In this document: piece by piece, positions 731-11,237 of the stretch
How the letters are laid out: each line of letters opens with the position of its first letter
Numbering within the stretch: position 1 is the stretch's first letter
NCBI GenBank assembly: GCA_037143175.1
Contig: JBAWZF010000029.1
Coordinates: 1 to 35,710 of the forward strand
DNA from: a bacterium
GTDB lineage: Bacteria; Verrucomicrobiota; Kiritimatiellia; CAIKKV01; CAITUY01
Direction: 5' to 3'
DNA: 35,710 nucleotides
The notes under the pieces: model-generated
Database searches by the model: none
Seen by the model: only the letters and a program-made list of their open reading frames with translations
What the model was told of the DNA's origin: nothing
Made by a program: the position numbers and the translations under genes

Positions 731-2533
731 CTACTCTCTTCCAAACTTCCGGGCCAATTCCCTGAATGACGTGTAGATCAGGGTTGGCCGTCCATGGGGG
801 CAGGTATAGGGCATTTCGGTTGAGGCCAACGCCACGACCAATTCTTCGACCTCCCGCAGGCTCAGACGGTCACGGGCCTTCACAGCGGCCTTACAGGCCG
901 CTTGAGCAATGGCCTCCTCACGCCAGCGGGTATGACTGCCTCGCTCACCCAGAGTTTCAAGATGTCGGGCCATATCGATCAAGAGTTCCTGGATGTTCAT
1001 GCCCTCCATCCCTTGCGGCAAGGCATCCACAACAAACGTATCGCCACCAAATTCCGAAACGCCCGCACCCATTTTCTTGATCAATTCAAGATTCTTGCGG
1101 ACATACATGGCATCACGCGGCTGAAGTTCAACCGTCACCGGAGGCAGTAGGCCCTGACTCTCGACTGTACCCTTGTCCAATGACTGCAGGATCTCTTCAA
1201 ACAACACCCGCTCATGAGCGGCATGGGGATCCATTACCACATAGCCATCCTCGGTTTCGAGCAACACATAGAGCCCGCCAATCTGCCCGATAACCCGACA
1301 CCAGGTCCACGGCCCCTTCTGCGCAGGTGGCTTTACCCCGACTGGCGCAACCTCAGGGGCCGCCCTTTCCCCGGGATGAAGTTGGGGAGGTCTGGGTTCA
1401 ATGGGGGGTAACCGGGGATAAGAAAAGACACGCGAGGGCGGAAGATCATCAATTTTAAGGCAAGGCAAAACCACCTGCTGCTCCTGAGCGGCCGCCGGTG
1501 CGGGCGCCGTAGCCTGCCCTGCCACAAACGCCGCACCCGCCCCAGACAACGCCGCGCGAATGGTGCCGATAATAGCGTCCCTCACCTCGGAAGGATTCCG
1601 GAACCGCACCTCCTTCTTGGTCGGATGCACATTCACATCTACCAACTCAGGATCTAGTTCCAGATATAAAAAGATGTAGGGATGGCGACCATCCGCAATC
1701 AGGGCATGAAAGGCCTCATTAATGGCATAACTGACCACCGGCGCGGTGGCGGGGCGCCCATTTACAAACACATATTGCTCGGTTCGATCACCCCGGGTTA
1801 ATTCTGGCAAGCTGACATATCCGGACAACTTCACCTCACCGGAGGTTTTTTCGATCGGGCATAATTTCGCCACGATCTCTTTACCGAAAAGCTCACGAAT
1901 CCGTTCCTTCGGGCTCGCTCCGCCAGCCAATGACCAGGAGCGACGCCCATCCAGCGTCAAGCTCATACCCACCGCCGGCCAGGCCAGTGCCTGCAACAGA
2001 AACATCTGCCGGACATGCACGGTCTCCGTCTGGGGCGACCGCAAGAACTTTCGACGTACGGGAATATTAAAAAATAGATCCCTTACTTCAATCATGGTTC
2101 CCGGCGGGCAACCCGCCTCCTTTACATCAAGAAGTTTTCCACCGCTGACGACCAACTCCGAGCCCTCCAGGTCATTATGACGGCGGGTCTGGAGTCGGAA
2201 ACGGGCCACCGACGAGATAGCGGCCAGCGCCTCCCCACGGAAACCCAACGTGTGAATGTGCTCGATATCGGCTGCCGTATAGATCTTACTGGTGGCATGG
2301 CGCTCAATGGAAAGGAGCGCATCATCGCGATTCATGCCGGATCCGTTATCTGCGACAGAAACGAGACGGGTACCGCCCGAGATGACCTCCACATCAATTT
2401 GTGTGGCCCCGGCATCAATGGAGTTTTCCAGAATTTCCTTAAGAATCGAGGCGGGACGTTCGACAACTTCCCCGGCAGCGATTTTATTCGCGACATCGGT
2501 TGGCAGCAGTCGAATATGCCCGCCCTCGTTCAT
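731..2533 (-). CDS. mutL: DNA mismatch repair protein MutL, endonuclease-type
   Basis: MutL couples mismatch recognition by MutS to strand incision. The N-terminal GHKL ATPase motifs are all present. Counted on the longer 603-aa form they are: KEILENSIDAGAT with catalytic Glu36 and Asn40, DNGSGM at 65-70, and GFRGEAL at 100-106. The C-terminal domain carries endonuclease and metal-site motifs, namely DPHAAHER from residue 438 (the usual DQHA has become DPHA), ACKAA near 550 and CPHGRP at 581-586. It therefore resembles the nicking MutL of bacteria without MutH, not the E. coli type. The frame could open at a TTG (2542) overlapping the previous stop, but the ATG at 2533 (MNEGGHIRLLP) fits the family better. 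There is no clear ribosome-binding site, so translation is probably coupled to the upstream toroid gene. Confidence 0.96.
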   Translation of the reverse strand: MNEGGHIRLLPTDVANKIAAGEVVERPASILKEILENSIDAGATQIDVEVISGGTRLVSVADNGSGMNRDDALLSIERHATSKIYTAADIEHIHTLGFRGEALAAISSVARFRLQTRRHNDLEGSELVVSGGKLLDVKEAGCPPGTMIEVRDLFFNIPVRRKFLRSPQTETVHVRQMFLLQALAWPAVGMSLTLDGRRSWSLAGGASPKERIRELFGKEIVAKLCPIEKTSGEVKLSGYVSLPELTRGDRTEQYVFVNGRPATAPVVSYAINEAFHALIADGRHPYIFLYLELDPELVDVNVHPTKKEVRFRNPSEVRDAIIGTIRAALSGAGAAFVAGQATAPAPAAAQEQQVVLPCLKIDDLPPSRVFSYPRLPPIEPRPPQLHPGERAAPEVAPVGVKPPAQKGPWTWCRVIGQIGGLYVLLETEDGYVVMDPHAAHERVLFEEILQSLDKGTVESQGLLPPVTVELQPRDAMYVRKNLELIKKMGAGVSEFGGDTFVVDALPQGMEGMNIQELLIDMARHLETLGERGSHTRWREEAIAQAACKAAVKARDRLSLREVEELVVALASTEMPYTCPHGRPTLIYTSFRELARKFGRE

Positions 2534-2538
2534 TAAGC

Positions 2539-4032
2539 TCAAATCACATCCACAACCACGTCATCAGACTTCGTGGCAGATGGAGCGGCCTTTTCGCCCT
2601 CGACATGCTTGAACGTCGGCAGATAGCGATAATAGACTTCCAGCATCAGACAGCAAAGCGCGGTGGTGTAAACAGCCCCACCATGATCGCCTCCCTCCCA
2701 ATGCCCCAATGTCCCTTCCACGATTTGATTTTGGACCAAGGTCTTGGTAAATCGTGGATTCCATGAAGCCCAATCCTTTTCGCCCTTCTGGAATTTCGCC
2801 TGAGTGGCATAATACCAAGTATAAACAGGTTGCGTGGCCGCTTTCGCATCCGCATTTGCGCCGGGATTTGCTTTTTCAGCTTTTTTGCCACCAGCCCAAA
2901 CACATGCCATATCTTCCAAGTATTTCAGAGCCGTACGTACCTGCGGCGCATTGGGTTTTCCCATCAACTGCAAACACAAGGTACCGGCGGATGTCATACT
3001 GGGAGTGGAATTGGGTGACGAATAACCAAACCCGCCCCCTTTGGGGTCGTATGCAATGTCTGTTAGGAAGTCCATACCCTTTTTGATGGCATCCTCAAGC
3101 TTGGGATTGCTGCAACCGGCCATTTTTGCCGCCTTCATCGCCTGAAATTGCCAGCCCGCCACAGATAAATCCCATCGTTCTTTTTTTGCATAACCATAGT
3201 CATAACCTCCGCCCGTCTGCTGCCCATCGACGATGATCTTGATGCCCTTATCCATCGCCTCCTTGAGCGCCATGATCTTGGTTAAGCCGTACCCCTCACT
3301 AATGGCATAAGTACAAATGGCATGCTCGTAAGAGTTCCCAGAAAAAGCACCGCTGGCTTGCTGCTTCGACACGACATACTTCATGGCTTTTTCAACCGTC
3401 TGCCCGAATTCCTGCGAGGCAGGGGTTTCGCCGTGGGCCAGAAAAGCGAGCAAGGCCAAACCGGTAAACGCAAGCGGAGCAGAAGCCTCCCCCTTGGAGA
3501 AAGAGCCATCGTCGCTCTGATTGGCCTTGAACCAACGCAAGGCTCTCAGCACAGCATCTTCGCCACGTGAGGATCCACCAAAGGCACTTAAAGCACCCTT
3601 GCGACCACCTGCAGTACGTCCGGAATACAAGCCTTTCATGACCAGAGGACTTTTAGCCATCGCGACTTCAAATCCGGCCGCCATGGTGGCATCCCCACTA
3701 CCAATCCCTGCGCCCTCCGCATTTCCTGCTCCGGATCCCGGGGCATCGGAGGGGACATCCATGGTGCTCACTGTCGCCACATCCGGGCGCTCGACAGCCA
3801 CTTCATCCTGTACAGGGGGCGGCTCGACCTTCTCAATTTCAGTTTTCATCACCTCTTCAAGCACATCCGCCTTGGTCTCCATCATCGTGACTTCAACTTC
3901 CGGCGCGGCTTCCGGTGGTGGCGCCGAGGCGAACACCAGTAACATCCCCACAATGATAACGTGGAAAATAACGGATCCGACGGGGCCCCAAATATGTTGT
4001 TTGATCAGTCGCTGTATTTGCGTTACGTCCAT
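2539..4032 (-). CDS. TonB-like membrane anchor fused to a prenyltransferase/squalene-cyclase-like alpha/alpha toroid
   Basis: This is a 497-aa protein with two parts. Residues 1-35 form one membrane segment preceded by a basic cytoplasmic stub. It holds S20-V-I-F-H24, the SxxxH pattern by which TonB couples to ExbB/ExbD. A Pro/Glu/Val-rich, periplasm-spanning-type linker follows (about 36-85), then a Gly/Ala-rich stretch. From about residue 155 on, repeats such as DDGSF, GGGYDYG and GGGFGY look like the toroid repeats of prenyltransferase/squalene-oxidase-like proteins. The cyclase DxDD motif is not seen, so it is probably a binding or structural domain. No TonB C-terminal domain is present. 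It sits directly after exbB-exbD-exbD, with a GGAGAA ribosome-binding site 9 nt before the ATG. The likely role is the energised output subunit of the complex; the substrate is unknown. Confidence 0.8.
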   Translation of the reverse strand: MDVTQIQRLIKQHIWGPVGSVIFHVIIVGMLLVFASAPPPEAAPEVEVTMMETKADVLEEVMKTEIEKVEPPPVQDEVAVERPDVATVSTMDVPSDAPGSGAGNAEGAGIGSGDATMAAGFEVAMAKSPLVMKGLYSGRTAGGRKGALSAFGGSSRGEDAVLRALRWFKANQSDDGSFSKGEASAPLAFTGLALLAFLAHGETPASQEFGQTVEKAMKYVVSKQQASGAFSGNSYEHAICTYAISEGYGLTKIMALKEAMDKGIKIIVDGQQTGGGYDYGYAKKERWDLSVAGWQFQAMKAAKMAGCSNPKLEDAIKKGMDFLTDIAYDPKGGGFGYSSPNSTPSMTSAGTLCLQLMGKPNAPQVRTALKYLEDMACVWAGGKKAEKANPGANADAKAATQPVYTWYYATQAKFQKGEKDWASWNPRFTKTLVQNQIVEGTLGHWEGGDHGGAVYTTALCCLMLEVYYRYLPTFKHVEGEKAAPSATKSDDVVVDVI

Positions 4033-4097
4033 GTTGATATTCTCCTACCCCCTATTACGCGGAAGCACCAAAGCATTACAAAATAATTTCAAACTGC

Positions 4098-4511
4098 TCA
4101 GGCGCCACCGGAGCTGACCACCGAAAGGTTTGTCAATTTGAGTTTGGAACAGAGATCCAGAAGCTCGATCAACTTACCGTGGGGAGAATCGTTCAAGCAC
4201 TGAATCAGAATAGTCTGTGTTTTATCCAGATCCGCCAGTTTGCTAAGCAGCGTGTTTAATCCCCGGCTATCCACCGCACGGTCATTAATGGTAAACCCAT
4301 CAGGAAAGACCGTTACGCGAATCACCTTTGGAGGGGTCGAATTCTGGGTAATGGAGTCCGCCTGAGGACGAAATACGTCCAAATTGGTAACCACATCCAC
4401 GGGCTTCGCCGTCAGGATGAAAAATGCCAGCAACTGAAACGCCACGTCAATCATGGCGGTGAGATTGAGCTCACCCGCCTGAAATGAATTTCTTCTACGT
4501 TTTCTGCCCAT
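4098..4511 (-). CDS. exbD: ExbD/TolR-family proton-channel subunit (second copy)
   Basis: The 137-aa protein has the ExbD/TolR layout: a short basic cytoplasmic N-terminus, one membrane helix (about residues 17-36) containing the conserved Asp of the AMIDVAFQLLAFF segment, and a small periplasmic domain. That Asp is part of the proton path in ExbBD/TolQR motors. It lies 21 bp after the first exbD and 65 bp before the toroid gene, in the same direction. Two different ExbDs in one operon are common where the motor serves a dedicated cargo and may form a heteromer. ExbD and TolR cannot be separated from sequence alone; the TonB-like neighbour favours ExbD. Confidence 0.88.
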   Translation of the reverse strand: MGRKRRRNSFQAGELNLTAMIDVAFQLLAFFILTAKPVDVVTNLDVFRPQADSITQNSTPPKVIRVTVFPDGFTINDRAVDSRGLNTLLSKLADLDKTQTILIQCLNDSPHGKLIELLDLCSKLKLTNLSVVSSGGA

Positions 4512-4532
4512 AAAAATACATCCTTCAACCGA

Positions 4533-4964
4533 CTAGGCTTTTTCGGCTCTTTCCTTGAGTGCGGTGAACTTGATTTTCCAGATCTTGGCGGCCGTACAGG
4601 CATCCATGGCTTTTTTGACGGCCGAGTGTTTGGCTCTGGCATCCGCCATGATCAAGACAGGGACATCCCCTTTCCCCCGCGCATCAGCCCTCGCCTTGTT
4701 TAGGACGAGAGTCAACTCGCTGGCGGTAATCGGCGTACGACCAATCGACAGAACGCCTTTTTCACTCACATAAACCTTTACCGCACGGGGATCCTTCTTC
4801 TTTTCCACAACTCCGTTGGGAGCCGAGGCCAATTTGATCCGGTCATCAACCGCGCTTTCCTGCAAATTGGAGGTACAAACGAAAAAAATGATCAACTGAA
4901 AGACCACGTCGATCATGGCCGTCAGGTTACCATTTAATAATTCTTCTTCTTTTTTCTGGCGCAT
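4533..4964 (-). CDS. exbD: ExbD/TolR-family proton-channel subunit (first copy)
   Basis: The 143-aa protein starts with a charged cytoplasmic segment, then a single helix (about residues 13-32) with the motif LTAMIDVVFQLIIFF that includes the essential Asp, then a periplasmic domain of about 105 residues. It follows the exbB-like gene by 24 bp and precedes the second exbD by 21 bp. The two ExbDs share the membrane motif but little of the periplasmic domain, so they are not a recent duplication. A GGAG lies about 12 nt upstream of the start, rather far for a ribosome-binding site. Confidence 0.9.
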   Translation of the reverse strand: MRQKKEEELLNGNLTAMIDVVFQLIIFFVCTSNLQESAVDDRIKLASAPNGVVEKKKDPRAVKVYVSEKGVLSIGRTPITASELTLVLNKARADARGKGDVPVLIMADARAKHSAVKKAMDACTAAKIWKIKFTALKERAEKA

Positions 4965-4988
4965 AGGATTATCAACTCCAAGGCCGAT

Positions 4989-5825
4989 TTACTCCGAGAC
5001 CACTTCAACGTTACGCAAGGCCTTGATCAGATCCAGCGTCAAAGCCTCCATTCGCAGGATACTGTTCATGGCGCGGTTCTTGAAGAAATAGAAGAAAATC
5101 GTCGCAGGCACCGCGGTACCCAGTCCGATCGCCGTCGCCCACAACCCGTGGGAAATGTTAACGGCAAGCATCGACTGCTGGGCCGCTCCGGCTTCCATCG
5201 TTCCCATCGTATAGAAGGCCATGATCATACCTTGCACGGTACCGATCAGTCCAAGCATCGGGGTAGTATTTGAGATAACGCTCAAATAGGTCACGCGACT
5301 GAGCAATTTTTCGCTCTCCAGATCCGCCGCCACACCAACCGCATCCTGAACCACTTCATACCCTTCCTCAACCTGGGCAAACCCTGCCTTGAGAATATTT
5401 GCAAGGGCACCCGGGGAACTGTCGCAATGCCCGATGGCCTTCAACAGGTCGCCCTGTTCCATGGAGGAACGTACATTGGCAATCAGATCAGGTGGCATAA
5501 TTTTAACGTCCTTGATATTGACAAACGAATCAACAATCAAAGCCACACTGATAATGGAGCAGATAATCAACGCCGCCCAGATAACCATACCGAACCAGCC
5601 GGCACGGGTGATAATTTCCAAGAACCCACCCTCGCCATGCTTAGGAGCTGCCGCAGCCTCGCCGCCCTCGACTGCCAATCCACCATCCGGTGTCGCAGCA
5701 GCAGCCACTGCAGGAGCACCCCCAGCAGGTGCCTTAGCCTCATCAGCAGCCTTCGCCCAGTGGGCTGAACCCAAAACACAGAAAATCGCCATTGCCAACC
5801 CGACCCATACCGCTTTTTTCATCAT
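4989..5825 (-). CDS. exbB: ExbB/TolQ/MotA-family proton-channel protein with cleavable-type signal and Ala-rich periplasmic extension
   Basis: This is the 278-aa channel subunit of a proton-motive-force motor. Residues 1-26 look like a signal peptide ending AKA|AD. An Ala/Gly-rich low-complexity stretch (27-67) follows, then three membrane helices (about 78-100, 180-205 and 228-248). The family hallmark TPMLGLIGTVQGMI lies at 188-201. Signal-bearing, extended ExbB proteins are typical of dedicated Ton-like systems and unlike E. coli TolQ. It is preceded by AAGGAG 8 nt before the start, and two TPR genes lie upstream in the same direction. Confidence 0.93.
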   Translation of the reverse strand: MMKKAVWVGLAMAIFCVLGSAHWAKAADEAKAPAGGAPAVAAAATPDGGLAVEGGEAAAAPKHGEGGFLEIITRAGWFGMVIWAALIICSIISVALIVDSFVNIKDVKIMPPDLIANVRSSMEQGDLLKAIGHCDSSPGALANILKAGFAQVEEGYEVVQDAVGVAADLESEKLLSRVTYLSVISNTTPMLGLIGTVQGMIMAFYTMGTMEAGAAQQSMLAVNISHGLWATAIGLGTAVPATIFFYFFKNRAMNSILRMEALTLDLIKALRNVEVVSE

Positions 5826-5879
5826 GCCATTCTCCTTGCTACGTTTACGTTAAACATTCTTAAACATTAATCATCACAC

Positions 5880-6668
5880 TCACCCGCCCAGCTTCCTTGT
5901 AAAAGGACTATCGGGAAAATTCGCTCTCAACCGCTTCTTCAAATCCTCCGCACGCGGATCGCGCATTTCTTCAAACAATTGCGCGGCCTTGAAAAGGGCT
6001 TCAGGTTGTGAGGCCGCCACATCCTCATACAACAGAATAGAGCGAAGGTAATCCAGTGCCGCATCATCACGCTTGCCATCTGCCTTGTTCATGTCCCCGC
6101 GCTTCACCAATGCCAAGGCTACCAGCGGACGAGACTCCCCCGAAATGGCTTCAGTCAGACTTTGTTTAAGTACGGCGTTCATCTGAGCGCCCGCCAAGGC
6201 AGTCCAATACAAACCATACTGCTCATCCGTCACCAGATTTCTGGCCGTGCCCGCCAGAACATCACCCATCACCTGCGCGCCCTTTTTAAAATCACCCTTG
6301 CCCAAGTACGCCTTCGCCAACAACTCACTGGCCATGCCATCCCATTGCAACCGCTTGTAGCGGGTGATCAAATCCTCGAGAATCGGGATGGCCGCCTCAA
6401 ACTGCCTGGCGGCACAGGCTTGGACCGCCTTATCAAACTCGGCCGGTTTGGCGATATCCATGGAATCAACCTCATCCGCAGGAATCGACACCATTGCCCC
6501 ATCAGCCTGCTCAACCTGATATTCTTGACGGCTCGGAAACCATTTAACTCGAAGTCCCTTGATTTCACTCCCATCGCTTTTCTTGAGGGTGTCGGCACAG
6601 AGTACACTTCGCCCCCCCAGAATCACACTCAATGCCCCTATTAAAATGATTATGTTTTTACGACTCAT
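5880..6668 (-). CDS. Secreted SH3-like/TPR-like protein, paralogue of the 10461-11237 protein
   Basis: The 262-aa protein begins with a signal peptide (cut near VLCA|DTL). A small beta domain (about 26-75) has the DGSEIKG...VSIPADEVDSMDI pattern seen in small SH3-like modules, and a helical repeat region runs to the C-terminus (QFEAAIPILEDLITRY, SQPEALFKAAQLFEEM). It aligns along its whole length with the 258-aa protein at 10461-11237, for example MDIAKPAEFDKA against MNIDRPAELDQA. It lies between the 946-aa TPR gene and exbB, so it is probably a periplasmic accessory of the motor complex. The function is unknown. Confidence 0.82.
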   Translation of the reverse strand: MSRKNIIILIGALSVILGGRSVLCADTLKKSDGSEIKGLRVKWFPSRQEYQVEQADGAMVSIPADEVDSMDIAKPAEFDKAVQACAARQFEAAIPILEDLITRYKRLQWDGMASELLAKAYLGKGDFKKGAQVMGDVLAGTARNLVTDEQYGLYWTALAGAQMNAVLKQSLTEAISGESRPLVALALVKRGDMNKADGKRDDAALDYLRSILLYEDVAASQPEALFKAAQLFEEMRDPRAEDLKKRLRANFPDSPFTRKLGG

Positions 6669-6683
6669 GATATCCTGACCTTT

Positions 6684-9524
6684 TTATCGTCCGGTTGCCA
6701 GTGTGGTCTTTGCGTCATCACGCCCCTGTCGCGCCTTATTCACAAGCCGCCCTTGCGGAAACTGCTTCAAATAGGTCTCGCACGTTTCAATCATGTCCTT
6801 GTACCGTCCGAGTTCCTTCATCAGAGGCAAGGCAGCCTCGAAAGCCTTCTCCACATAGGGGCGCACCTTCATGTTTGAATAATCTGCAAAATCAAGAATC
6901 TTAACCAAAGAGGCCATGGCGGGTAATTTTTCTCCCTGCATGAGCTGAATCAGCGCCATCTCATAGTCGGCATTAATCAGTATTTCCGGTTCCCGTGCAT
7001 ATTGGCGCACTTTCCCCATCGCCATATATGCCTTGTCAAAATACGGCTTAGCCTTCGCCACATCCGGTAATGCTTTCTTCGCCTGCTCGGCATAGGCACG
7101 GCTCAGCGCCATATTGATATCAATGAGATATCCGGACTTAGGATTCTTAGCCAGAAAATTGGTATAGACATTAATCGCATTGTCGTAATCCCCGACTCCG
7201 TTAAGCGCCTGTGCATACCCTACCGTAGCCGCCTGTAAAACGGAAGGTTCAGGCGACTTCATGGCTTCAGTAAACATGGCCTTAGCCGCCTCATACTCCT
7301 TTGCCTCCAGCAGCACCCGGCTTGCACGCAGGAACTGAGACGCAGAATAGGCCTTGGTATTGCCGAGCATCTCGGCATACACCTTAACCGCCTTATCCTT
7401 CTCCCCCATTGCCATCAACGCGTCTGCGCGCACAAAAATCGTGTTTTTAGCCTGATCGCTATTGGGATATTCCTTCACCAGCCGATCGAAACATTTACCA
7501 GCCTCATCCGACTTGTTTAGCAAAAAGTTCAGCGTCCCCATGGCCCCCAAGGCGGCTGGCGCCATTTCGGATTTCGGGAATTCCTTCAGGAAACTCTCAT
7601 AGCCCTCGACGGCCTTCTGCTGATAAAGTGCAATCTGATTAGTTGGCTCACGCAACCGGGAATAACACTGCGCCTTTGAATAAAGAGCATACTCATAGAC
7701 ATGCTTTACCTTCAGCGTGTCTTCAGGAGTCTGGGCATACTTTGGTCCATCCTGCATAATCATCTTGATCAGGCGGGAATATTCATTCAATGCAGGAATA
7801 GTCATGTCTGCCGAACGATACGCATCCGCCAATCTCAATCGGGAGGCAACCATCTCGGGCCCGCCAAAGACCTGAGCGATGTAATTCGTTAAATAAGGTA
7901 TGGCATTGGTGTAATCGTTTTGGGTCGTTAACACATAAGAGGCCCGGCTGAGGGCATCCGGATAGACCCGATGCTTGGGGTAATTCTCCATGATCCGCTG
8001 ATAGTATTTTAAAGCATCAACCGTATTCGTTGCCCGCAGCGCGGCTTCGCCCTGACGGAACATAATGGAGGGAGCTTTGGAATGGTTGGCGAAGCTGATG
8101 AAAAATAAGTTATAGACTTCATCAGCTTTCATCTGTGCCCGCCGCTCTTCATACAGGGAAGATATCGACAGCAAAGCATTTCCCGCCTCCTCATAGCGGT
8201 TCGTAGTCTGACAAAAACGTTCGGCCAAAAACTCAGTCATGGCCCGCGCAAAAGGGGCATCATTAAGTTCGATGTAACTCCTTGCCAATTCACTTACAGC
8301 CAAGGGCACACCCCTGAAATCATTCGCCATCCCAAGCACTTCAAGATATTTCTGGGAAGCCGCCTTGTAATCCTGATTCTGGAAAAGCATCCGCGCCTGC
8401 TTCAACTGTTCCGCCACCAGCTGTGTATCATTACTCGTCGGCCGCTTAAAGACTTTACCCATACTCTCAAGGAGATCGGCAATGCCATCGGCCCGCCGAC
8501 GCGCCTCAGGTGCCCAGCTACTGGCCGGGTATTTCTGTGCCACGGTATAGAGTTGCCCCATGGCCTGAGCAAACAACTTGATGGAATCAGCCTCCGTCGC
8601 TTTATCTTTCACCTTCTCGCGGGCGTCTTCTTCAAGCAACGAGCCAAGCAGAAACTTACACTCCGCCATCGGGCTGAGGCTCATGTTTTCCCCGGCATCA
8701 CGCAGCATATTGTCCACATCGTTCAGCATGCCCATATAGTCCGTGATTGCCTTGCGAGCCAGATCTTTGTTCCCGTTCACCAAGTGAACGTGCGCCAGAA
8801 TCACTACGGTCTTGGCAAACCAGAGATCCGTCCCCTTCCACTGAACGTCATTACATATCTTGATGGCGTCAGCGAGGAGCGCTTTCTTCTTATCCGGAGC
8901 CGTGCCGGGCAACTCCGCCACACGCAGCAAGAGTTCAGCCATCTCCGTTTTGACACGCCGCTCAATGTCGGTTGAATTCAATGGACAGGTCAAAACCCGG
9001 CGATACGCCTCCACAGCGCCAGGCAGATCGCCGGAGAGCATCAACATTTGGGCAAATTTATAGGCAGACTCTCCATAAAGTCGGGCAATTTGTTCCGGCG
9101 GTCCCTTGGGGAACTGCTTGAAAAAGCCCTCATAGATCCGCTGAGCGTCCTTCATGCGTTGCCAGGCATAATACTGATCACCAAGGGCAAGCTGCATGAC
9201 CATGGTTTCAGGCGCACCGGGAGGCAAAGTCTTAAGAAACGCTTCCGCCTCATCAAATTTACCGCGGGAAGTCAAAATTTCCACACGCACCTTGGCCGCC
9301 TCCGCCTTGGCGTTTGGATATTTCACAATCAACCTATCCACGGCCTTTTGGGCATAGTCAGGAAACCGGAACTTGATCAGCTCGGACGCAAACTTAAGTT
9401 CAAGCTGCGTTTCTGTTTGTTCATCAGCAGCCGACGCTGAAGTGGCGGCCAAAATGACCACTAATCCAGTCGCCAACTGACGCACCGCCCAAAGGCCCAG
9501 TATATAGAGCTTTTTAGTCACCAT
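6684..9524 (-). CDS. Large periplasmic TPR-repeat protein
   Basis: This 946-aa protein opens the Ton-like operon. A signal peptide (about residues 1-33, ending SASAADE) is followed by helical tetratricopeptide-type repeats along almost the whole chain. Typical repeat pieces are AEAFLKTLPPGAP, AVEAYRRVLTCP, ALKYYQRIMENYPKHRVYPDAL, AGKCFDRLVKEYPNSDQAKN and AINVYTNFLAKNPKSGY. The repeats resemble those of YbgF/CpoB- and BamD-like scaffold proteins, which act in the periplasm with Tol/Ton or outer-membrane machines. AAGGA stands about 7 nt before the ATG. It most likely scaffolds the ExbBD/toroid complex in the envelope; a precise role cannot be read. Confidence 0.85.
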   Translation of the reverse strand: MVTKKLYILGLWAVRQLATGLVVILAATSASAADEQTETQLELKFASELIKFRFPDYAQKAVDRLIVKYPNAKAEAAKVRVEILTSRGKFDEAEAFLKTLPPGAPETMVMQLALGDQYYAWQRMKDAQRIYEGFFKQFPKGPPEQIARLYGESAYKFAQMLMLSGDLPGAVEAYRRVLTCPLNSTDIERRVKTEMAELLLRVAELPGTAPDKKKALLADAIKICNDVQWKGTDLWFAKTVVILAHVHLVNGNKDLARKAITDYMGMLNDVDNMLRDAGENMSLSPMAECKFLLGSLLEEDAREKVKDKATEADSIKLFAQAMGQLYTVAQKYPASSWAPEARRRADGIADLLESMGKVFKRPTSNDTQLVAEQLKQARMLFQNQDYKAASQKYLEVLGMANDFRGVPLAVSELARSYIELNDAPFARAMTEFLAERFCQTTNRYEEAGNALLSISSLYEERRAQMKADEVYNLFFISFANHSKAPSIMFRQGEAALRATNTVDALKYYQRIMENYPKHRVYPDALSRASYVLTTQNDYTNAIPYLTNYIAQVFGGPEMVASRLRLADAYRSADMTIPALNEYSRLIKMIMQDGPKYAQTPEDTLKVKHVYEYALYSKAQCYSRLREPTNQIALYQQKAVEGYESFLKEFPKSEMAPAALGAMGTLNFLLNKSDEAGKCFDRLVKEYPNSDQAKNTIFVRADALMAMGEKDKAVKVYAEMLGNTKAYSASQFLRASRVLLEAKEYEAAKAMFTEAMKSPEPSVLQAATVGYAQALNGVGDYDNAINVYTNFLAKNPKSGYLIDINMALSRAYAEQAKKALPDVAKAKPYFDKAYMAMGKVRQYAREPEILINADYEMALIQLMQGEKLPAMASLVKILDFADYSNMKVRPYVEKAFEAALPLMKELGRYKDMIETCETYLKQFPQGRLVNKARQGRDDAKTTLATGR

Positions 9525-10460: not shown

Positions 10461-11237
10461 CTACTTCAGCTTCGCGGCAAATTCGCTGGTTTTGTAGTCT
10501 TGCAGAAGAATCTTGCGCAAATCTGCAGCGCGTGGATCTTTGGCATTGGCTTTCTCCAGCAATTCCGCTGCGTTGTAAAGCGCTTCAGGCTGAACGGCCT
10601 TTTCTCCCTTGAAAAGCGTCACGATCTTCAAAAAGTCAGACAAGGCAGCGTCTTGATTTCCATCCTGCAGATAGGAATTTCCTCGAATCAAGTAAGCGGC
10701 GGCAACCAGATCCGAAGGTCCAGTCCCCAAGGTCCGGTTCAAATCCCGTTCCAACTGCTTGATATCCCCCGTTTTCTGTAAAGCCTTCCAGTAGTTCATC
10801 TGTACTGAAGCAGGCATGGTTCCGCCAGCCGTAAACACCCGATCCATAGCTTCGGACGCCTTTTTGAGGTCATTCATTTCCACGTAACACTGGGCCTGCA
10901 GCTTCATGGCATCGACATCCCAACTCAACTTCCTATAGGCCTTGATCATCCCATCCAACACGGGAATGGCCTGGGCATACTGTCCCGAGCTCACCAATTT
11001 TTTGGCCTGATCAAGCTCGGCCGGTCTATCAATGTTCATCGACGCTATCTGGTCTTCGGGAACCGGCATACTGGCCCCCTCATTAATCACCAGATAATCA
11101 CGGGTATCTTCACGCCACTCAATGGATTTACCCGTCACAGTGCGCCCGTTTTTCATAACAATCACACTCGCCTGGGCCGCCAGGGCTAATCCGCTACTCA
11201 CGACCGCCGCCGCCACAAGAATTCTGCCGATGTTCAT
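10461..11237 (-). CDS. Secreted SH3-like/TPR-like protein, paralogue of the 5880-6668 protein
   Basis: The 258-aa protein has a signal peptide (about residues 1-23, ending AAQA|SV), an SH3-like beta module (VIVMKNGRTVTGKSIEW ... MPVPEDQIASMNI) and helical repeats (QYAQAIPVLDGMIKAYRKL, QPEALYNAAELLEKA, DPRAADLRKILLQDY). It is a full-length paralogue of the 262-aa protein inside the Ton-like operon, but lies outside that operon, 33 bp after the 487-aa gene. AAGGAG occurs about 8 nt before the ATG. The duplication suggests two interchangeable or differently expressed accessories. The function is unknown. Confidence 0.82.
   Translation of the reverse strand: MNIGRILVAAAVVSSGLALAAQASVIVMKNGRTVTGKSIEWREDTRDYLVINEGASMPVPEDQIASMNIDRPAELDQAKKLVSSGQYAQAIPVLDGMIKAYRKLSWDVDAMKLQAQCYVEMNDLKKASEAMDRVFTAGGTMPASVQMNYWKALQKTGDIKQLERDLNRTLGTGPSDLVAAAYLIRGNSYLQDGNQDAALSDFLKIVTLFKGEKAVQPEALYNAAELLEKANAKDPRAADLRKILLQDYKTSEFAAKLK

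Follow-up and report, generated by a model that had tools for sequence, protein, structure and literature searches.

A putative toroid-headed force transducer encoded with a TolQ/ExbB-like motor in a Kiritimatiellia bacterium

The last protein (497 aa) of a six-gene block in the window (the whole stretch of 35,710 nt that was analysed) is, in our judgement, probably a force transducer of the TolA/TonB type. It would carry an alpha/alpha-toroid head and be driven by its own TolQ/ExbB pentamer together with two different ExbD/TolR subunits. In favour of this reading, which we hold to be likely, are an operon that is conserved in an all-or-none manner, an anchor with SHLS and D-box motifs, conserved channel Thr, Pro, and Asp residues, the co-occurrence of motor and toroid across genomes, and a published analogue with a von Willebrand A (vWA) head. 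Against it stand the 18/69 motor-linked homologues without the exact S..H pair, a Trp38 position that is not conserved, a covariation that amounts to two switches, and motor loci that have no toroid. The preliminary description of this DNA had proposed a Ton-like operon with a toroid as its output subunit. Its core, a TonB/TolA-type anchor joined to a toroid in a conserved operon, was upheld, but SxxxH proved not to be universal, and we encountered 29 unlinked toroids and three toroid-less motor loci.

Operon layout and motor subunits

The block had been described as TPR - SH3/TPR - ExbB - ExbD - ExbD - anchor-toroid protein at window positions 2539-9524 of the minus strand. Coordinates, Pfam, AlphaFold, and Foldseek confirmed this arrangement, with all six genes lying where they had been placed (Table 1). 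Read 5' to 3', the order is TPR (946 aa), SH3-like/TPR (262 aa), TolQ/ExbB-like (278 aa), ExbD-like a (143 aa), ExbD-like b (137 aa), toroid protein (497 aa), and then mutL. The gaps along the six genes are 15, 54, 24, 21, and 65 nt, which points to a tight operon; scans for promoters and terminators gave no more sites than expected from shuffles. In homologous loci too, mutL is often the next gene downstream, and its tie to the operon is probably one of co-transcription only. The SH3-like/TPR protein has a paralogue that is encoded just upstream of the operon (window 10461-11237), in close relatives as well.

Both TPR proteins are likely exported, judging by eye from their signal peptides (ending ...SASA in the 946-aa protein). 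The 946-aa protein matched TIGR02795 (YbgF/CpoB-type TPR) with 120 bits; this is probably generic TPR similarity. The AlphaFold model of the 262-aa protein has a pLDDT of 90, with strands at residues 26-71 and helices after them, and its Foldseek neighbours were BamD and the kinesin light chain TPR.

The motor had been named ExbB/ExbD. This name is right at the level of the family (Pfam MotA_ExbB once and ExbD twice), but not for the closest kin, as TolQ and TolR scored higher: the NCBIfam models that score best for the ExbB-like subunit and the first ExbD are those of TolQ and TolR, with all scores below the curated cut-offs. Upon alignment of the TolQ/ExbB-like subunit with TolQ structures, the pore residues T196 and T231 were found to be kept in 61/61, and P240 is also conserved. 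The channel Asp of ExbD-like a (Asp19) is present in 61/61 and that of ExbD-like b (Asp22) in 60/61.

Table 1 Features of the operon and of the toroid protein. Positions refer to the window. Column Basis denotes the evidence used for each feature.
Feature	Position	Strand	Basis
946-aa TPR protein, first gene of the operon	6684..9524	-	Pfam TPR families; orthologue heads the operon at 61/90 loci
262-aa protein, small SH3/Sm-like beta-barrel (26-71), then TPR helices	5880..6668	-	AlphaFold, Foldseek
TolQ/ExbB-like motor subunit with N-terminal extension	4989..5825	-	Pfam MotA_ExbB 81 bits; best NCBIfam match TolQ
ExbD/TolR-like subunit a, channel Asp19	4533..4964	-	Pfam ExbD 74 bits; aligned with E. 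coli ExbD
ExbD/TolR-like subunit b, channel Asp22	4098..4511	-	Pfam ExbD 63 bits
497-aa putative transducer: anchor helix, D-box, linker, toroid	2539..4032	-	AlphaFold, Foldseek, profile search
Anchor helix, residues 17-36, with S20-x3-H24-x6-L31	3925..3984	-	Sequence; motif per PMC12215075
D-box-like strand V46-E-V-T-M-M-E52	3877..3897	-	TonB D-box pattern (PMC10907165)
Conserved pre-toroid segment KSPLVMKGLYSGRTAGGRKGALSAFG, residues 127-152	3577..3654	-	Recurs in A2M-like and YfbK-type vWA proteins
Alpha/alpha toroid domain, about residues 155-475, QW-type repeats, no DxDDTA	2608..3570	-	AlphaFold, Foldseek, SHC profile alignment, motif scan
mutL	731..2542	-	Pfam; overlaps toroid gene by 4 nt

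Motor-binding motifs of the anchor

In TonB and TolA, the SHLS motif reads S-x3-H-x6-L-x3-S; through its Ser and His (Ser16 and His20 in TonB) it makes contact with Ser34 and Trp38 of ExbB (PMC12215075). The S20-x3-H24 pair noted earlier in the anchor helix is real, and two elements were found in addition to it. L31 brings the SHLS residues present to three of four (the fourth position is A35, not S), and the helix is followed by a D-box-like strand. The D-box of TonB, ISVTMVT, has the pattern hydrophobic-polar-hydrophobic-polar-hydrophobic-hydrophobic-polar and is bound by ExbD (PMC10907165).

Among motor-linked homologues, S is conserved in 57/69, H in 52/69, L in 48/69, and the exact S..H pair in 50/69; 18 have another residue at one of the two positions or at both, and one lacks residues there. 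Homologues that lack SxxxH, which the preliminary description had counted against its own proposal, thus make up a part of the family, yet those counted here are still motor-linked and most keep the D-box. A relaxed D-box pattern is found at the aligned positions of 64/68 motor-linked homologues, SxxxH-less ones among them. A scan with the strict pattern returned 22/50 of the SxxxH type (4.9 expected from shuffles) and 12/18 of the other motor-linked homologues (1.5 expected). We rejected a chance occurrence of SxxxH given the 50/69 above and its presence at the start of the N-terminal TM helix in only 3/60 such genes within the surveyed parts of the window's genome. Besides the 497-aa toroid gene, these are the genes of a vWA transducer and of a TonB encoded next to a TonB-dependent receptor.

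In order to assess docking of the anchor on the motor, we considered Ser90 in TM1 of the ExbB-like subunit, which an alignment by eye matches with TolQ Ser28 and ExbB Ser34. Position 90 is Ser in 45/45 motors with an S..H toroid, in 4/4 with Asn24, and in 1/11 of the rest. On the tree, this association comes down to only two switches; the pattern is therefore consistent with docking but not significant after phylogeny, and we did not accept it as proof. Several other ExbB columns track the state of His24 as strongly as Ser90 or more strongly, which indicates a clade effect. The equivalent of E. coli ExbB Trp38 is V, I, A, L, or another residue and is not conserved.

Linkage to the motor and nature of the toroid head

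A toroid homologue was found in 86/97 related genomes. Those from named records belong mostly to Kiritimatiellae, Lentisphaeria, and PVC MAGs of unclassified position. The one cultured strain among them, Oligosphaera ethanolica (DSM 24202), has the six-gene block at locus L112; plasmid records contained no relative. There are 124 distinct homologues, and we scored linkage on the 90 having at least 6.5 kb upstream. All five partners lie upstream of the toroid in 61 of these loci and none in 29, with no intermediates. The proposed link between toroid and exbBD therefore holds for 61/90, in both Kiritimatiellota and Lentisphaeria, but not for the 29/90 without upstream ExbBD. No ExbBD gene was seen within 10 kb of 28 of the 29 unlinked toroids, the exception being an opposite-strand ExbBD pair about 4 kb away. 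A family motor is present elsewhere in the genome in 11/11 checkable genomes of unlinked toroids, and in all seven such loci that were fetched it is the intact five-gene core. A strong toroid match occurs in 69/79 motor-bearing versus 4/18 motor-lacking genomes (Fisher p 1e-7 over the 97 genomes, uncorrected for phylogeny). Because most of the genomes are fragmented MAGs, absences are provisional.

Conversely, the five-gene core runs straight into mutL with the toroid absent in genomes G052 and G089, neither of which has a strong toroid match, and at one of two motor loci in G012, which has a toroid-bearing operon elsewhere. Nearly all motor-bearing genomes have just one family motor; two or three toroids occur in some of them. 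These toroid-less loci, the 29 unlinked toroids, and the excess of toroids over motors in some genomes would fit a toroid that serves as a regulatory or assembly factor and bears no load, the main output passing via the large TPR proteins and, in the way that TolR binds peptidoglycan, via the periplasmic domains of ExbD. We consider this unlikely, since the anchor combines SHLS and D-box, the two motifs by which true force transducers bind their motor, with a long linker after them, and since motor and toroid strongly co-occur across genomes.

The loci with the five-gene motor core, no adjacent toroid, and ExbDb directly before mutL are L177, L178, and L181. Other gene arrangements were observed as well. 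Two toroid genes follow one motor in tandem at L033:8761-11817, L139, L141, L142, and L165. Three ExbD-like genes come after ExbB at the motor loci L176, L180, L184, and L186, and the genomes of these four have tandem toroids elsewhere with anchors that are mostly SxxxN or SxxxH.

Structure prediction of the 497-aa protein alone showed the expected anchor helix (17-36), disordered linker (disorder at 41-135), and toroid, the latter as a confident helical domain at about 155-475 with pLDDT mostly >90. The linker of about 100 residues could, if extended, span a periplasm. In Pfam, the protein matches Prenyltrans below threshold (24.9 bits against a cut-off of 26.5), and 29/32 toroid homologues match SQHop_cyclase_C and 3/32 TED_complement. 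The profile of the toroid family aligns with squalene-hopene cyclase through the QxxDGxW repeats (E 1e-18). Foldseek neighbours of the toroid were squalene-hopene cyclase, GH76 mannanases, and complement/A2M thioester domains. A motif scan found the catalytic D.DD[TS]A in 0/124 toroid homologues and a bare D.DD anywhere past residue 150 in 17/124, and Pfam did not find the TonB C-terminal domain (PF03544) in the 497-aa protein. The earlier statement that a toroid without the DxDD catalytic motif stands in place of the TonB C-terminal domain is thus borne out. Identity as a terpene cyclase or prenyltransferase was rejected on the motif count; identity as a canonical TonB or TolA was rejected since TonB_C is missing and the genome has its true TonB and TolA at other loci.

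The toroid head is probably a non-catalytic binding domain. That it is instead an enzyme (a glycosidase, lyase, or transferase on envelope polysaccharide) tethered to the motor and moved or gated by it seems quite improbable to us. The GH76 mannanases, a polysaccharide lyase, and sugar epimerases among its Foldseek neighbours would suit such an enzyme, as would the many invariant polar and aromatic residues of the toroid (Q172, Y235, Y242, E246, D288, S290, Q297, Y337, Y407, Y408, Q411, R469). However, in addition to the missing D.DD[TS]A, a thioester-like [CG]GE[QE] pattern appears in only 1/124 homologues, and no Pfam enzyme family matches the 497-aa protein above cut-off.

Ahead of the toroid we observed a segment of about 25 residues, KSPLVMKGLYxxRxxGGRxxAL..FGG, that is shared with an A2M-like 2683-aa protein and with two vWA proteins that have YfbK-type domains and come from related genomes. 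Besides window 3577-3654, its loci are L087 (aa about 1370-1400), L202, and L211. It is possibly a shared docking motif.

Proposed working and comparison with known systems

The window's genome has other systems of this kind. PF03544 occurs at two loci outside the operon, the TonB beside a TonB-dependent receptor is present as noted above, and a TolA-TolB-Pal set lies at L092. The vWA transducer (L091:7797-13081, contig C1) has an S-LLL-H anchor, adjoins TPR and ExbB-like genes, and matches the published type (PMC12204202). A second TPR-ExbB-ExbD-toroid operon is found at L081:8077-16537 (contig C6), its toroid protein having 1273 aa and several hydrophobic stretches at the start. With TonB, TolA-TolB-Pal, and a vWA transducer also present, the toroid system is additional to Ton and Tol and would be a parallel output. 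It is accordingly very improbable that the 497-aa protein is a TonB/TolA analogue with a replaced head that serves a known Ton/Tol function (nutrient uptake, outer-membrane constriction): the best score of the ExbB-like subunit is with TolQ, and the 946-aa protein has the YbgF/CpoB-type TPR match given above, but that genome already has both TonB beside its receptor and TolA-TolB-Pal, and no receptor, TolB, or Pal gene is seen in the six-gene operon.

As a force transducer, the toroid protein may work as follows. Proton flow through the motor would cause movement of ExbD, whose two different ExbD/TolR subunits, we infer, form a heterodimeric axle. Via Ser20 and His24, the anchor helix would dock against TM1 in the ExbB-like subunit, while the ExbD periplasmic domains would capture the D-box (46-52). 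The disordered linker of about 100 residues would bring the toroid close to the cell wall or the outer membrane. There the toroid would grip a candidate partner, be it a glycan, a protein of the outer membrane, or the TPR proteins of the operon, and pass the force on. The TPR proteins may also act as a scaffold, as the preliminary description supposed.

More tentatively, and with doubt outweighing confidence, these systems may form a further class of PMF-driven trans-envelope transducers, toroid-headed, present in many Kiritimatiellota and Lentisphaeria, and accompanied in the window's genome by Ton, Tol-Pal, and a vWA transducer. In this class, one motor could serve several toroid arms in trans, and the segment of about 25 residues would tie toroid, A2M-like, and vWA proteins of the envelope to a partner that they share. 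The findings suggest that the SHLS-plus-D-box anchor is a reusable module that was joined in evolution to a TonB domain, a vWA domain, and a toroid, several of them in one genome. They offer a concrete and testable envelope machine for phyla about whose cell envelopes next to nothing is known, and make it testable how much of the TolQ/ExbB superfamily drives things besides Ton, Tol, and flagella.

Compared to the TonB-ExbB-ExbD system of E. coli, the operon has in common the SHLS anchor, the D-box strand, and a motor of the ExbB/ExbD family; in contrast, it has no TonB C-terminal domain and no receptor gene, but two ExbDs and TPR partners. It resembles TolQ-TolR-TolA/Tol-Pal in a motor that scores closest to TolQ/TolR and in a TPR protein as in CpoB/YbgF, whereas the TolA C-terminal domain, TolB, and Pal are absent from the operon. 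The head shares QxxDGxW repeats and the alpha/alpha toroid fold with squalene-hopene cyclase and terpenoid-cyclase toroids, but is without the DxDDTA acid motif and is fused to a motor anchor. It shares its fold (Foldseek) with complement/A2M thioester domains, with TED_complement in 3/32 members as given above, but the thioester-like pattern is confined to the single homologue already mentioned.

The closest likeness is to vWA-headed SHLS transducers of PVC bacteria, encoded after a TPR, a tolQ-like, and two tolR-like genes and initially encountered in the PVC member Tichowtungia (PMC12204202; Williams-Jones et al. 2025). Calling the toroid protein a new kind of effector, as had been done, was overstated because these transducers were already published. 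Both systems belong to the PVC group, both have an inner-membrane SHLS helix, a disordered linker with a motor box, and a globular head other than that of TonB, and both place the gene after a TPR gene, one tolQ-like gene, and two different tolR-like genes. Toroid heads are not mentioned in that paper (PMC12204202), and we found no toroid-ExbBD system in the open-access papers that were searched. The differences are that the head is a squalene-cyclase-like toroid here and a von Willebrand A fold there, and that the conserved block here also includes an SH3-like/TPR gene. The toroid-headed protein appears to be a form, not described until now, of a class of force-transmitting proteins that was proposed only recently.
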